DNA from: Paucibacter sediminis
GTDB taxonomy: Bacteria > Pseudomonadota > Gammaproteobacteria > Burkholderiales > Burkholderiaceae_C
Assembly: GCF_030254645.1 (NCBI RefSeq)
Contig: NZ_CP116346.1
Span: forward strand, 1,034,001-1,098,000
Reading direction: 5' to 3'
DNA: 64,000 nucleotides
Numbering within the stretch: the stretch's first letter is position 1; each line of letters opens with the position of its first letter. Made by a program: the position numbers and the translations under genes. The notes under the pieces are model-generated. The model was not told where the DNA came from. It saw only the letters and a program-made list of their open reading frames with translations, and made no database searches. Positions 34,831 to 56,824 of this stretch are shown here, piece after piece.

Positions 34831-34903
34831 CCTCAGGTATAGTCATCAACTTCACCGCAAGACCGAGGTCGCCTGTCGACCGTCTTGCCGGCCACGAGCC
34901 CGA

Positions 34904-35100
34904 GCGACGTCGGGAGAGTCCGCGTGCCACCCGCGCGGCGCCGAAGGAGCAACCGCCCCGGAAACTCTCAGGCAAACGGACCGATGTCGCGGATGAACTC
35001 TGCAGAGTTGCCGGCTGCCTGACGTCCGCCGGTACGCCGAAGGAGCAAGTCTGGCCCCCGGGGGGCCGCACGAATCTCTCAGGTGTCAGCAACAGAGGGG
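34904..35100 (+). promoter_or_regulatory. Tandem glycine riboswitch
   Basis: Two glycine aptamers in tandem. Aptamer 1 (34904-34990) is closed by a 10-bp P1 (GCGACGTCGG with CCGATGTCGC, one wobble) and has the conserved CCGAAGGAGCAA and GAAACTCTCAGGCAAA segments. Aptamer 2 (34998-35097) is closed by CTCTG with CAGAG and repeats GCCGAAGGAGCAAG and GAATCTCTCAGGT. The linker is 7 nt. A strong bulged hairpin (35103-35128, CCACCG with CGGTGG plus GACG with CGTC) follows without a T-run, so control is more likely translational. It precedes the Liv-type binding protein gene by 61 nt. Confidence 0.93.
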
Positions 35101-53004: not shown

Positions 53005-53874
53005 TCAGCTTGATGCGAGCGGCACCACCACCCCGGTGGCCGCGGCGACGCGCGCCGCCATCTCCTTGCGGAAGCGGTTCAGCTCCTGCACGCTCGCGAA
53101 GCTGCGATCCATCAGCAGGCTCATGTTGTGGAGGATGCGCTCCACCACCTTGTTCTCCCACACCGCGTCGAACTGGATCTGCGTGTCCAACCACTTCTCA
53201 AGCCACTCGGGGTCGGGCAGGCGGCTCTGGATGGTGTCGCGCGGGAACAGCTTGGCGTTCACATGCAGATTGGTGGGATGCAGGGCCTGGGCGGTGCGGC
53301 GCGCGCTGGCCATCAGCACCCCCACCTTGGCAAAGGCCGCCTTGGCCTCGTCGCCGAACTTCTGCATGGCGCGCTTCATGTAGCGCAGATAGGCGCCGCC
53401 GTGGCGCGCCTCATCGCGCGCCAGGGTCTCGTAGATCGCCTTGATGACGGGTTCGGTATGCCATTCCGACGCGCGCCGATACCAGTGGTTCAGGCGGATC
53501 TCGCCGCAGAAATGCAGCATCAGCGTTTCCAGCGCCGGCGCGGGATCGAAATCGAAGCGCACCTCGTGCAGCTCCTGCTCGGTGGGCACGAGGTCGGGGC
53601 GGAAGCGGCGCAGGTATTCCATCAGCACCAGCGAATGCTTCTGCTCCTCGAAGAACCACACGCTCATGAAGGCCGAGAAGTCGCTGTCGTCGCGGTTGTC
53701 GCGCAGAAACATCTCGGTGGCCGGCAGCGCCGACCACTCGGTGATGGCGTTCATCTTGATGGTGCGGGCCTGGTCCTCGGTGAGGCGGCTGGCATCGAAC
53801 TTGTCCCAGGGGATGTCCGTGTCCATGTTCCAGCGCACGGCTTCGAGTTGCTTGAAGAGTTCGGGGTAAAGCAT
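53005..53874 (-). CDS. Ferritin-like di-iron protein (possible acyl desaturase-like enzyme)
   Basis: A 289-residue ferritin-fold protein with two EXXH-type di-iron half-sites, FFEEQKHS (about 75-82) and LARDEARHGG (about 153-162), plus further Glu residues (TEWSALPATEMF, FCGEIRLNHW) at the spacing of soluble acyl-ACP desaturases and related oxygenases. The substrate is unknown. It lies 82 nt downstream of the carH-like gene on the same strand and could be co-transcribed with it, placing a di-iron oxidase in the light-response locus. Confidence 0.82.
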   Translation of the reverse strand: MLYPELFKQLEAVRWNMDTDIPWDKFDASRLTEDQARTIKMNAITEWSALPATEMFLRDNRDDSDFSAFMSVWFFEEQKHSLVLMEYLRRFRPDLVPTEQELHEVRFDFDPAPALETLMLHFCGEIRLNHWYRRASEWHTEPVIKAIYETLARDEARHGGAYLRYMKRAMQKFGDEAKAAFAKVGVLMASARRTAQALHPTNLHVNAKLFPRDTIQSRLPDPEWLEKWLDTQIQFDAVWENKVVERILHNMSLLMDRSFASVQELNRFRKEMAARVAAATGVVVPLASS

Positions 53875-53955: not shown

Positions 53956-54894
53956 TCAGGCGGGGTCGGCGCGCCAGCGCTGCACCGCGGCGGCCACCTC
54001 GCCCAGCTGCGCGACGCGCTGCACGCCGCCGACCGCGCTGCGCTGCAGGGCACTGCCACTGCCGCCGGCCCATAGTGCCACTGCGGGCGGCAGCAGGGCG
54101 CGCAACTGCTGCAGGCCCTCGTGCACCGCGCCGGCGGGCAGCACATTGCTGAAGCTCAGCGCCACGATGTCGGCGGCATGGGCGCGCGCCGCCAGCGGGA
54201 TGTCGGCCAGCGGCGTCTGCACGCCCAGCGAGAGGCATTGGCAGCCCTCGATCGTCAGCATCGCCTCGGCCATCAACAGGCCCAGGCCATGGGCCTCGCC
54301 GGGCAGGGTGCTGAGCAGCACGCGCGGCCGCTCACTCAAGGCCTGGCGCGGCACCGCATGGATGGCCTGGCGCAGCACCTGCTGCAGGCATTCCGAGTAG
54401 ATGTGCTCTTCGAACACCGCCAGCTCGCCCTGCATCCAGAGCTCGCCCACCTGCGTCGTCAAGGGGGCGATCAACTCCAGCACCGCCGCGCCCAGGCCCA
54501 TGCGCACGATGGCCTGGGCCAGCAGGCGGCGCAAGTCTTCCACCCGATGCGACTGCAGCAAGTCCAGATATGGCGCGAGCGTCTCGGCAGGCAGGTAGCC
54601 CTGCTTGGCCTGCAAGCTGCTGCGCCGCTGCATCGCCTCCGCCAGCAAGGCCTGCAACACCTCCCGATCGGCGGGCACGACGCGCCCGGGCCGATGACCT
54701 GCATCGAGCAGGCGCTTCAGCAGGCGCAGCTTCTCGACCTGCTCGGGTGGATAGATGCGCTCGTCCTGCGCATCGCGCAGCGGCGCCGGAAAGCCATAGC
54801 GGCGCTCCCAGATGCGCAAGGTGTCCTTGCTGAGCCCGGTCTCGCGCTCGACGGCGGCAATGCCCGGCATCCCGGCGGACGCGGATTCAGCCAC
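53956..54894 (-). CDS. litR: CarH/LitR-type MerR regulator with B12-binding photosensor domain
   Basis: A 312-residue light-sensing repressor candidate. A MerR winged helix (GIAAVERETGLSKDTLRIWERRYGFP) is followed by a helical cap with the adenosylcobalamin signature Wx9EH (W153, E163, H164) and a B12-binding Rossmann domain with ExHxxG (EAHGLG, H202 as lower axial ligand). In CarH and LitR the dark tetramer binds DNA and light breaks it up. I chose the GTG at 54894; a TTG at 54942 lies inside an operator-like box, and an ATG at 54870 is the shortest option. Divergent from the lipid operon. Confidence 0.9.
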   Translation of the reverse strand: MAESASAGMPGIAAVERETGLSKDTLRIWERRYGFPAPLRDAQDERIYPPEQVEKLRLLKRLLDAGHRPGRVVPADREVLQALLAEAMQRRSSLQAKQGYLPAETLAPYLDLLQSHRVEDLRRLLAQAIVRMGLGAAVLELIAPLTTQVGELWMQGELAVFEEHIYSECLQQVLRQAIHAVPRQALSERPRVLLSTLPGEAHGLGLLMAEAMLTIEGCQCLSLGVQTPLADIPLAARAHAADIVALSFSNVLPAGAVHEGLQQLRALLPPAVALWAGGSGSALQRSAVGGVQRVAQLGEVAAAVQRWRADPA

Positions 54895-54928
54895 GGCGCG
54901 TTCCGTCCAGCAGCCATTTATTTGCAAT

Positions 54929-54944
54929 TTTGTCCTGGACAAAC
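54929..54944. promoter_or_regulatory. Operator-like box 1 (CarH/LitR candidate)
   Basis: TTTGTCCTGGACAAAC: the first 15 bases are a perfect palindrome (TTTGTCC, T, GGACAAA). It lies 35 bp before the chosen start of the regulator gene and directly next to the -35 of the rightward promoter. It matches box 2 at 13 of 16 positions. The assignment to CarH/LitR rests on position and repetition, not on a known consensus. Confidence 0.6.
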
Positions 54945-54946
54945 AT

Positions 54947-54975
54947 ATGACATTCCGTTTGATATGCCCTAATAT
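54947..54975 (+). promoter_or_regulatory. Rightward sigma70-type promoter between the two boxes
   Basis: ATGACA (54947-54952, five of six matches to TTGACA) and TAATAT (54970-54975, four of six matches to TATAAT) are separated by 17 bp. Transcription would start near 54982 and run right into the structured region and the lipid operon. Box 1 abuts its upstream edge, and box 2 covers about +11 to +26. Confidence 0.6.
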
Positions 54976-54991
54976 AGCGACGCGACATCGA

Positions 54992-55007
54992 TTTGACTAG
55001 GACAAAC
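54992..55007. promoter_or_regulatory. Operator-like box 2 (CarH/LitR candidate)
   Basis: TTTGACTAGGACAAAC differs from box 1 only at positions 5, 7 and 8 and keeps the GGACAAAC half intact. Its start is exactly 63 bp from that of box 1, six turns of B-DNA, so both face the same side of the helix. A further GGGACAA/TTGTCCC inverted repeat with an 8-bp spacer is at 55119-55140. Confidence 0.6.
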
Positions 55008-55381
55008 AATGTTCAAAGCCGGCCCAATACCAGCGCACCCATGCCGACTCACCGGGCGGCAAGCCGCGTCAGCCAGGCGTTAACTTCATGACCCATACTG
55101 TTGCTCATCTGCTGACCATTGTCCCCGCTAGCTGGGACAAATCCGGCCCGGCCAGCGCCAAGCGTGGGCGGACGCAGTACACAGTGGTCAAGCCCTTGAG
55201 TGCGGCTGCCGATACCGTGGCAGCCGTCTCGGCTTTGAGCACAAGCCCGCAACAAACAGGTAAAGTTTCCACCAACTTTCAGTCGCAAGATCTCCCCGTC
55301 AATGGGGCTGTAATCCCGGAGCCTTTCTCCTCCTCCTCCCTCCCTCCCTCGTTAGCTCCGGGGCGTCTTGCGGCTACTTTT

Positions 55382-56824
55382 ATGTCCAGGGCTTCCGCCT
55401 CGTGCGGAAGCCCTTTGCTTTTGCGCCAGGCCTCGGGCGCCGCCGATCATGCACGCGGGCTGAGCGAGTTCCTGGCCGGCCTGCATGCGCTTCCCCCCGG
55501 TGGTGGCGCCGGCCCTGGCGGCCCGCGCGTGGCGGTGGTCGGTTCCGGCATTGCGGGTCTTTCGGCCGCCTGGGCGCTCAGCCGCCACGCCGATGTCACG
55601 CTGTTCGAGGCCGGGGACTATTTCGGTGGCCACACGCACACCGTCGACATCACGCTGCAGGGTCAGCGGCACGGCGTCGACACCGGCTTCCTGGTCTTCA
55701 ACGAGCGCACCTACCCGCTGCTGATCCAGTTGTTCGCGCAGCTGGGGGTGGAGGTCGCGGCCAGCGACATGTCCTTCTCGGTCCAGCTGCCCGAGCTGGC
55801 CCTCGAATGGAGCGGCTCCAACCTCAACAGCGTGTTCGCCCAGCGTCGCAATCTGCTGCGCCCCGCGTTCTGGGGCATGTTGCAGGATCTGCTGCGCTTC
55901 AACCGCCTCTGCACCGCACTGGCCGAGCGCGGCAGCGAAGCCGCACTGTCGCAATCGATCGGCGACTTCCTCGGCGAGCAGCGCTTTGGCGAGGCCTTCC
56001 GGCGCTGGTATCTGCTGCCCATGGTGGCCTGCATCTGGTCATGCCCGACCGCGCAGATGCTGCAGTTCCCAATCCGCACGCTGATCCGCTTCTGCCACAA
56101 CCATGGGCTGCTGCAGGTGACGCAGCGGCCGCAGTGGTTCACGGTGCGCGGTGGCGCACGCCACTATGTGGACAAGCTGCTGCCGCAGATCCGGCACAAG
56201 CGCCTGAACTGCGCCGTCCATGCGGTGGAGCGTTGCGGCACGCAGCTCAGGGTGCACAGCGGCGCCGGCACCGAGCTGTTCGATGAGGTGGTGCTGGCCG
56301 GCCACAGCGACCAGTCGCTGGCCCTGCTCGGCAACGCCAGCCTGCAGGAGCGCCAGATCCTCGGCAGCATCGGCTACCACCGCAACCGCGCCGTGCTGCA
56401 TACCGACGCGGGCCTGCTGCCGCAGCGCCGGCGCGCCTGGGCGGCCTGGAACTACGAACATGGCGGCAGCGCCGGCCAGCTCCGGCGCGGGCGCGAAGAC
56501 CAGGCGGTCTGCCTGCATTACCTGCTCAACCGGCTGCAGCCCCTGCCCTGGCAGCAGCCGGTGCTGGTGTCGCTGAACCCGGTGCGCGAGCCGGCTGCCG
56601 CGCAGGTGCTGGGCGAGTTCGACTACGCGCATCCGGTGTTCGACCTGCCCGCCGTGCGTGCCCAGGAGCGCCTGCACGAGATCCAGGGCCGCGATCATCT
56701 CTGGTACTGCGGCGCCTGGACCCGCTATGGCTTTCACGAGGATGGCCTGCTGTCGGGCCTGGGCGTGGCCAAGCGCATGCTGGAACATTGGGCCGCGCGT
56801 GCCCCGGCCGGAGCCACACCGTGA
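55382..56824 (+). CDS. FAD-dependent amine-oxidase-type oxidoreductase
   Basis: A flavoprotein of about 430-480 residues whose conserved part begins at VAVVGSGIAGLSAAWALSRHADVTLFEAGDYFGGHTHTVD (GTG at 55529), the FAD-binding motif of the amine-oxidase and phytoene-desaturase superfamily. It continues DTGFLVFNERTYP and ends WYCGAWTRYGFHEDGLLSGLGVAKRML. The start is uncertain: the ATG at 55382 lies immediately before a terminator hairpin, so a TTG (55415 or 55421) or the GTG at 55529 may be used. It overlaps the DUF1365 gene by 4 nt (GTGA). Relatives sit beside cfa-like genes in light and singlet-oxygen regulons; a role in acyl-chain oxidation is inferred. Confidence 0.85.
   Translation: MSRASASCGSPLLLRQASGAADHARGLSEFLAGLHALPPGGGAGPGGPRVAVVGSGIAGLSAAWALSRHADVTLFEAGDYFGGHTHTVDITLQGQRHGVDTGFLVFNERTYPLLIQLFAQLGVEVAASDMSFSVQLPELALEWSGSNLNSVFAQRRNLLRPAFWGMLQDLLRFNRLCTALAERGSEAALSQSIGDFLGEQRFGEAFRRWYLLPMVACIWSCPTAQMLQFPIRTLIRFCHNHGLLQVTQRPQWFTVRGGARHYVDKLLPQIRHKRLNCAVHAVERCGTQLRVHSGAGTELFDEVVLAGHSDQSLALLGNASLQERQILGSIGYHRNRAVLHTDAGLLPQRRRAWAAWNYEHGGSAGQLRRGREDQAVCLHYLLNRLQPLPWQQPVLVSLNPVREPAAAQVLGEFDYAHPVFDLPAVRAQERLHEIQGRDHLWYCGAWTRYGFHEDGLLSGLGVAKRMLEHWAARAPAGATP
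55388..55422 (+). terminator. Intrinsic terminator in front of the lipid operon
   Basis: AGGGCTTCCGC (55388-55398) and GCGGAAGCCCT (55404-55414) form a perfect 11-bp stem with a CTCGT loop, followed by TTGCTTTT. It overlaps the first codons after the ATG at 55382, so transcription from the upstream promoter would be ended or attenuated here before the operon. Confidence 0.8.

Follow-up and report, generated by a model that had tools for sequence, protein, structure and literature searches.

A conserved RNA with an anti-Shine-Dalgarno loop ahead of a lipid operon in Paucibacter sediminis: a probable new family of small RNAs

What is encoded by the DNA that separates a divergent regulator gene from a lipid operon in Paucibacter sediminis, and does it act on that operon or elsewhere? 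The window analysed here, a 64,000-nucleotide (nt) stretch of contig NZ_CP116346.1 (positions 1,034,001 to 1,098,000), contains about 440 bp at this place (54982-55422) that a preliminary description had taken for an unexplained structured RNA, either a light- or B12-controlled small RNA (sRNA) with an anti-Shine-Dalgarno loop or an attenuator leader. The observation is confirmed, but the extent of the RNA has to be reduced: only ~147 nt (55277-55423) are conserved, the preceding ~290 nt comprising promoter, operator-like boxes, and leader. The conserved part probably encodes a new family of structured sRNAs, controlled by stress or light and acting in trans by occluding Shine-Dalgarno (SD) sites, often from within an operon leader.

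From 5' to 3', the RNA consists of an outer stem, a small hairpin, an inner stem carrying a 30-nt loop of almost pure C and U, a U-rich linker, and an intrinsic terminator (Table 1). The loop is complementary to SD sequences throughout, and the C/T run at this place (29 nt, 55322-55350) is the sole run of C/T or A/G of at least 25 nt in the window. None of 1000 dinucleotide shuffles of 54982-55422 reached a C/T run of this length, and none contained a perfect 11-bp stem like that of the terminator (55388-55398 with 55404-55414), which is followed by an imperfect T-run, TTGCTTTTGC. Folding z-scores were -3.94 for 55290-55422 and -4.79 for 55000-55422, with no shuffle folding equally well, and the minimum-energy folds of the region revealed no competing structure such as an attenuator would use to make or break the terminator, although no systematic search for alternatives was made. 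The structured region, the C/T-only stretch, and the perfect terminator stem had all been noticed in the preliminary description and stand, apart from the irregular T-run.

These properties are shared by relatives. Sequences were gathered by means of the motif, which was present in 221 of 236 loci; removal of identical cores left 172 unique sequences, and three more (L105, L125, and L217, the last probably genuine) were dropped for an inner stem shorter than 6 bp. The resulting set of 169 still holds at least two likely chance matches, namely a second site in L033 and L131 from a Myxococcales metagenome-assembled genome (MAG). Over this set the median folding z-score is -3.17, with 80% of sequences below -2 (30 shuffles each), and the 18-nt loop core has a predicted median unpaired probability of 0.996, in line with the earlier suggestion of an sRNA-like element with an accessible anti-SD loop. 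A subgroup recognized by eye (L267, L268, L269, L272, L043, L044, L046, and L047) has a shorter loop, TTCTCCTCCCTCCCTCTCTT, with an outer stem near GUUGCGAAGC/GCUUCGCAAC followed by a terminator-like hairpin.

Covariation of the stems, chosen beforehand as the refutation test, was found in two alignments. In alignment A1 (30 sequences, with a structure of 30 pairs from RNAalifold), both-side changes occur in 19 pairs, and the covariation score of 0.411 exceeds that of shuffles (0.218 +/- 0.011; none of 500 as high) and of structures slid along the alignment (at most 0.144). In addition, 95.8% of cells are paired versus 86.4% in shuffles, and only 6 of the 500 shuffles matched the number of further pair types. 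Because A1 itself supplied the structure, and because its sequences are related, these controls are biased in the structure's favour. Alignment A2 was assembled from 76 more distant sequences, none of them in A1 (80 diverse sequences drawn from 132, minus four already used), and its structure was predicted separately. The two long stems appeared again, along with a weaker version of the small hairpin, and 21 of 23 pairs have both-side changes; the hairpin is the weakest part of A2, one of its three pairs being broken in up to 20 of the 76 sequences, and four rows have a shorter loop. In A1 the stems covary while the loop stays nearly constant.

The distribution of the RNA is centred on a single family. 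When 399 genomes of the same family were searched by BLAST with 55180-55430 (E <= 0.01), 88 gave matches, in 79 of them on the loop and stems (query 73-251, window 55252-55430) and in nine only as short matches in other query parts. The loop pattern, with up to two mismatches, was found once each in 132 of the 399 family genomes, covering 55 of 141 genera, and its reversed form in none of the 399; across the class it was present in two of 369 genomes, both belonging to Paucibacter's family. Covariance model R1 was applied with fuller scoring to 24 family genomes, each from a different genus and that of the window among them: 17 gave a single match, as against none of 16 genomes from other families of the order. 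The genome of the window has one copy (164.2 bits), the next-best candidate scoring 24.9 bits. When seven candidates per genome were scored in 399 genomes of the order, R1 matched 11 and missed known positives such as G012, and this count is therefore not used for prevalence. Among the matches listed (80 of at least 119), the motif occurs in Variovorax, Ramlibacter, Rubrivivax, Roseateles, Paucibacter, Caldimonas, Hydrogenophaga, Polaromonas, Azohydromonas, and Leptothrix, with a few under other labels (Myxococcales, Gammaproteobacteria, Methylotenera, and Proteobacteria MAGs). A plasmid collection searched for the RNA gave no match.

How the RNA might be controlled is indicated by the DNA upstream of it. 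The motif GGAAC-N16-20-TC, resembling a sigma-E-type promoter, precedes the RNA in 132 of the 169 unique sequences, compared with a mean of 6.3 (maximum 16) over 200 mononucleotide shuffles and four in the reverse complement, and it recurs in seven of nine members found later. The spacing from GGAAC to TC is mostly 18 or 19 nt, and in these 130 the median distance from the TC to the loop core downstream is 97 nt. Relative to the loop core, most promoter matches (115 of 133) fall in the usual interval of -150 to -111; the others lie elsewhere, so that some of the 132 may be chance. The motif agrees with RpoE promoters (GAACTT-16/17-TC) but does not match the RpoE2 type linked to ChrR (TGATCC...CGTAAT), both as described in PMC4336711.

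The window copy is most likely transcribed from another promoter, of LitR type, which its sequence places between two operator-like boxes, as the preliminary description had recognized. The boxes are separated start to start by exactly 63 nt in the window and in L012, L015, L016, L018, and L029 (6 of 169 sequences), whereas a scrambled version of the two-box module was found in 0 of 169. The -10 element TAATAT is kept in four of the five relatives and reads TAGTAT in L018, and litR itself lies beside the RNA in all five. By its position, the ATG after box 2 is the start of a glutathione peroxidase gene (gpx) in L016 and L018. The proposed control by light or B12 thus receives partial support: a LitR/CarH-type regulator is adjacent and the operator-like module is conserved, but such control would not be general, given the sigma-E-type motif in 132 of 169 sequences and litR in 11 of 40 loci surveyed. 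Closer to the RNA, an inverted repeat TTGTCCC...GGGACA is followed ~40 nt on by TACAC/TACAT in the window (55119-55140 and 55178-55184) and in L006, L007, L012, and L016. In this lineage, the two elements may serve the RNA as an additional operator and promoter.

The relation of the RNA to the downstream operon, whose first gene encodes a protein dependent on flavin adenine dinucleotide (FAD), differs among relatives. Terminators could be classified in 160 of the 169 loci, nine being too short. With an FAD gene downstream (89 loci), a terminator was recognized in 24, two of which (L039 and L063) overlap the start codon and are doubtful, and none was found in 65; in many of the unterminated examples (every second FAD-adjacent locus was examined), the FAD start follows the outer stem by some 20-50 nt. 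With no FAD gene downstream (71 loci), 55 have a terminator and 16 have none. A control search 400-510 nt downstream found a terminator in 10 of 160. The RNA was further related to DUF1365, a member of the operon, in 23 genomes where it lies away from an FAD gene (E <= 1e-10, with three FAD-operon genomes as positive controls): a close DUF1365 homolog (61-64% identity) is encoded elsewhere in seven, only a distant one (37-44%) in ten, and none was detected in six. The RNA is therefore not tied to the FAD/DUF1365 operon.

These data bear on an explanation in which the RNA serves the FAD/lipid operon chiefly in cis, as a leader that sets read-through or mRNA life by acting as an attenuator or as a stabilizer in the 5' untranslated region (5'UTR). 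The many FAD-adjacent loci in which no terminator was found and the FAD frame lies close behind would fit a leader, and so would the terminator that stands between RNA and FAD gene in the window. Nevertheless, 71 of the 160 classifiable sequences have no FAD gene downstream, mostly with a terminator, and the seven genomes with a close DUF1365 elsewhere have a single match to the RNA pattern. Moreover, the loop does not appear to pair with the FAD start: it is predicted to stay open when 100 nt of FAD mRNA are appended (0 of 91 FAD-adjacent loci below 0.5), and its duplex energy with the start region (-10.8 kcal/mol) is close to that of the control (-10.0 kcal/mol), so cis pairing was rejected. 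A role chiefly in cis seems unlikely, and the attenuator proposed in the preliminary description is possible only in part.

Most probably, the RNA acts in trans. Its structure, conservation, predicted loop accessibility, promoter motif, and terminator pattern, and its occurrence without the DUF1365 operon, are computational results; expression, control by light or sigma-E, pairing with targets, and processing are inferred. In the proposed mechanism, two nested covarying stems would keep the 30-nt C/U loop open, and the RNA would be produced under stress from its own sigma-E-type promoter in most of the relatives gathered or from the LitR-type promoter in the window. The loop would then pair with the ribosome-binding sites of target mRNAs and block their translation, as NfeR1 does. 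Before the FAD/DUF1365/CFA lipid operon, the RNA could double as a 5'UTR and be freed by termination, as in the window, or presumably by processing; the U-rich linker is a possible Hfq or RNase E site. A bolder and distinctly less probable variant is that this single-copy RNA mimics the tail of the ribosome, its loop competing with the 3' end of 16S rRNA for SD sequences and broadly retuning translation in photo-oxidative or envelope stress, in addition to serving as the 5'UTR of a lipid operon that would repair the same damage.

Several observations weigh against the interpretation as a stress- or light-controlled, trans-acting sRNA. A search of the genome for GGAGGAG-N3-10-ATG gave 65 matches (13 for the backwards pattern), and the 30 loci inspected formed no coherent target set. 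At the 65 of 89 FAD-adjacent loci where no terminator was found, the RNA may be a leader only, and predicted loop accessibility falls below 0.8 in 17 of the 169 sequences. Regarding control, the sigma-E-type motif is absent from the window copy and 36 others, including 23 of the 29 A1 sequences kept after removal of duplicates. The boxes of the window, putative LitR sites, differ from the PplR1/PmlR2 operator, given as TGTACA-N12-TGTACA in PMC9758184, and single TTTGTCC/GGACAAA sites are in no excess over a control word (9 vs 7 of 37 sequences, and 18 vs 13 of 132); the LitR assignment accordingly rests on the paired module. Finally, the 169 sequences are related and were collected via the motif itself, and hence are not independent samples.

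The lack of convincing mRNA targets among the inspected loci would also be expected if the pyrimidine loop served not as an mRNA seed but as a platform or sponge for a protein, which might be S1 of the ribosome, Hfq, ProQ, or a cold-shock protein. Its nearly invariant ~30 nt exceed the length needed for an SD-pairing seed, which points in the same direction. On the other hand, the loop is SD-complementary along its whole length, and the CCUCCUCCC loops of alpha-r14 are reported in PMC10746234 to pair at the ribosome-binding site. A platform function is regarded as unlikely, and pairing of the loop with mRNA remains the preferred explanation.

Membership of the RNA, in diverged form, in one of the existing Rfam families is very improbable. 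No family reaches its gathering threshold in the region of the window. When short stretches of L032 and the window were searched alone, weak matches emerged to alpha-r14 (RF02344; 18.0 bits in the window, E 0.38, and 23.4 bits in L032, E 0.0097, vs gathering 58.8), suhB/mmgR (RF00519; 22.2 bits in L032, E 0.01, vs 41), the Betaproteobacteria toxic sRNA (RF02278; 22.0 bits in L032, E 0.016, vs 50, with none in the window stretch at E <= 1), anti-hemB (RF02837; 18.2 bits in L032, E 0.036, vs 49.5), and ctRNA_p42d (RF00489; 25.7 bits in the window, E 0.0022, vs 50, on the terminator hairpin only). All of these scores are far below gathering and fall mainly on the C/U run or the terminator hairpin, and whole-locus searches of 20 further homologous loci gave no match at E <= 0.1. 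The only match to CcsR (RF02791) was to CcsR1, with 20 bits, and lies outside the RNA (L005, 2169-2262). No Rfam aptamer, for cobalamin or otherwise, matched 54950-55450 at E <= 1, consistent with the earlier failure to recognize a known riboswitch.

A conserved peptide can be practically dismissed: a 578-aa frame (55088-56824) does run open through the RNA, but GC content by codon position over 55088-55420 (0.56/0.60/0.63) lacks the bias of the FAD gene proper (0.72/0.46/0.89), as the preliminary description had noted, the stems contain indels, and the loop is conserved at all three codon positions, so the protein-coding reading of 55088-55420 was rejected.

Table 1. Coordinates, in window positions, of the RNA, its parts, and the associated features
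Feature	Position	Strand	Remarks
Conserved structured RNA (anti-Shine-Dalgarno sRNA / 5'UTR element)	55277-55423	+	Alignment A1 and covariation
Outer stem	55281-55291 with 55365-55375	+	A1 helix 1; both-side changes in 7/10 pairs
Small hairpin	55295-55298 with 55303-55306	+	A1 helix 2; both-side changes in 4/4 pairs
Inner stem	55314-55323 with 55354-55363	+	A1 helix 3; both-side changes in 4/9 pairs
Anti-Shine-Dalgarno pyrimidine loop, core TCCTCCTCCTCCCTCCCTCCCTCGTT	55324-55353	+	Nearly all A1 columns invariant
U-rich single-stranded linker	55376-55387	+	Seen in alignment A1
Intrinsic terminator	55388-55424	+	A1 helix 4; both-side changes in 4/7 pairs
Operator-like box 1, TTTGTCCTGGACAAA	54929-54943		Putative LitR-binding site
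Sigma-70-like promoter, ATGACA-17-TAATAT	54947-54975	+	Between boxes 1 and 2
Operator-like box 2, TTTGACTAGGACAAA	54992-55006		Followed by ATG in all six sequences
Third inverted repeat, TTGTCCC...GGGACAA	55119-55140		Partial conservation in related loci, upstream of the RNA
LitR/CarH-type MerR regulator, divergent from the RNA	53956-54942	-	MerR helix-turn-helix and B12-binding domains
FAD-dependent amine oxidase-like gene, first of the lipid operon	55421-56824	+	Pfam Amino_oxidase, 57.5 bits (55526-56824)

The genes around the RNA form a recurring neighbourhood. It was surveyed in 40 loci of 12 kb (39 of 40 fetched, L197 being missed by the motif expression, plus the window), with families checked for the window proteins and one peroxidase, and CorA in other loci assigned by resemblance. 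A di-iron gene is present in 28 loci, the FAD gene in 25, a CFA-type gene in 24, gpx in 17, a CorA-like gene in 13, and litR in 11. In all 17 cases gpx lies upstream of the RNA on the same strand. The order, found in whole or in part, is di-iron and litR on one side, both pointing away, followed by gpx, the RNA, FAD, DUF1365, and CFA in the opposite direction; in L006, L007, and L033, litR is divergent from the RNA and no FAD gene is present within the ~3-kb locus. The regulator of the window matches Pfam MerR_1 (44.5 bits) and B12-binding_2 (40.3 bits), and NCBIfam CarH with 121 bits, under the cut-off of 400 for that family. Through this one RNA, a promoter of the envelope-stress type is linked to a B12 light sensor, to glutathione peroxidase, and to an operon for lipid modification.

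The window itself has no gpx, a gene that in several relatives occupies the space from box 2 to the third inverted repeat. Only ~110 nt (55007-55118) remain at this place, suggesting a deletion: the third repeat lies ~110 nt past the two-box module in the window and some 700 nt further on in L012. Of the DNA flanking the gap, the left side aligns well to L012 (E 1e-7) and the right side weakly (E 0.002), and a search for a gpx remnant gave no convincing protein match (best E 0.006). At the other end of the RNA, a candidate FAD start, TTG at 55421, is in frame. Inspection by eye indicated that the protein has an N-terminal extension (55421-55525), shared with L015, L018, L029, L034, and L101 and marked by a recurring HA..L..FL-like pattern; the Roseateles-class FAD protein would accordingly begin at or near the terminator, and the start codon in this group appears, again by eye, to overlap or come after it. 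The di-iron protein (53005-53874, minus strand) has weak similarity to AurF and fatty-acid desaturases, and its longer matches show 83-96% identity to relatives beside the RNA in other genera, an unusual degree of conservation for an unnamed protein. Elsewhere in the window, the only riboswitch to reach gathering was a glycine aptamer at 34901-34993 on the plus strand (68.8 bits, gathering 32).

Placed among known systems, the RNA belongs to a family out of reach of every Rfam 15 model and found in 17 of the 24 genera examined within a large bacterial family. Some relatives have it as a terminated sRNA and others as a 5'UTR, so that comparing them could test how 5'UTR-derived sRNAs originate. 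The enteric sigma-E-dependent sRNAs MicA and RybB are likewise single sRNA genes with a GGAAC(TT)-N-TC promoter and an intrinsic terminator; they differ in having a 5' seed and an unrelated structure, whereas the RNA described here has an anti-SD loop and is often joined to a lipid operon. The light operons controlled by LitR/CarH proteins such as PplR1/PmlR2 offer a parallel for the window copy, with a MerR-type light regulator and two operators, the first at the promoter and the second downstream of the transcription start but ahead of the gene; here the box is TTTGTCC-GGACAAA, unlike the TGTACA-N12-TGTACA of PMC9758184, and the output includes an RNA. The toxic sRNA of Betaproteobacteria (RF02278) shares the bacterial class, a CUCCUCC stretch, and a terminator, but is a 64-nt model with four members in one B. 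cenocepacia genome, as stated in PMC4603805. No title or abstract opening describing the present RNA was found in a literature search that covered subscription journals only slightly, and the available portions of papers on ncS35 and Herbaspirillum contained nothing fitting it.

The nearest kind is formed by the alphaproteobacterial alpha-r14/NfeR1 and CcsR sRNAs, yet the RNA is no member of either group. CcsR1-4 of Rhodobacter sphaeroides, which have a role in photo-oxidative stress according to PMC7074977 and PMC10253847, are named, in the Rfam description, for the CCUCCUCCC motif; these four RNAs share a transcript with a DUF1127 gene, driven by an RpoHI/RpoHII promoter, unlike the single-copy RNA considered here with its other gene neighbourhood. 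Alpha-r14/NfeR1 of Sinorhizobium and the 'cuckoo' RNAs are stress-induced and keep an ultraconserved anti-SD sequence, CCUCCUCCC, single-stranded on variable stems, as described in PMC10746234 and PMC3927594; the NfeR1 loops silence an mRNA at its ribosome-binding site according to PMC10746234. The likeness extends to the 3' end, since the Rfam consensus of alpha-r14 closes with a hairpin followed by U's. Scores far below gathering and a different architecture separate the two: the alphaproteobacterial RNAs have three or more hairpins, each with the 9-nt motif, whereas the RNA of the window presents a single 30-nt loop on a two-level stem, is centred on one Burkholderiales family, and is preceded by a sigma-E-type or LitR-type promoter.

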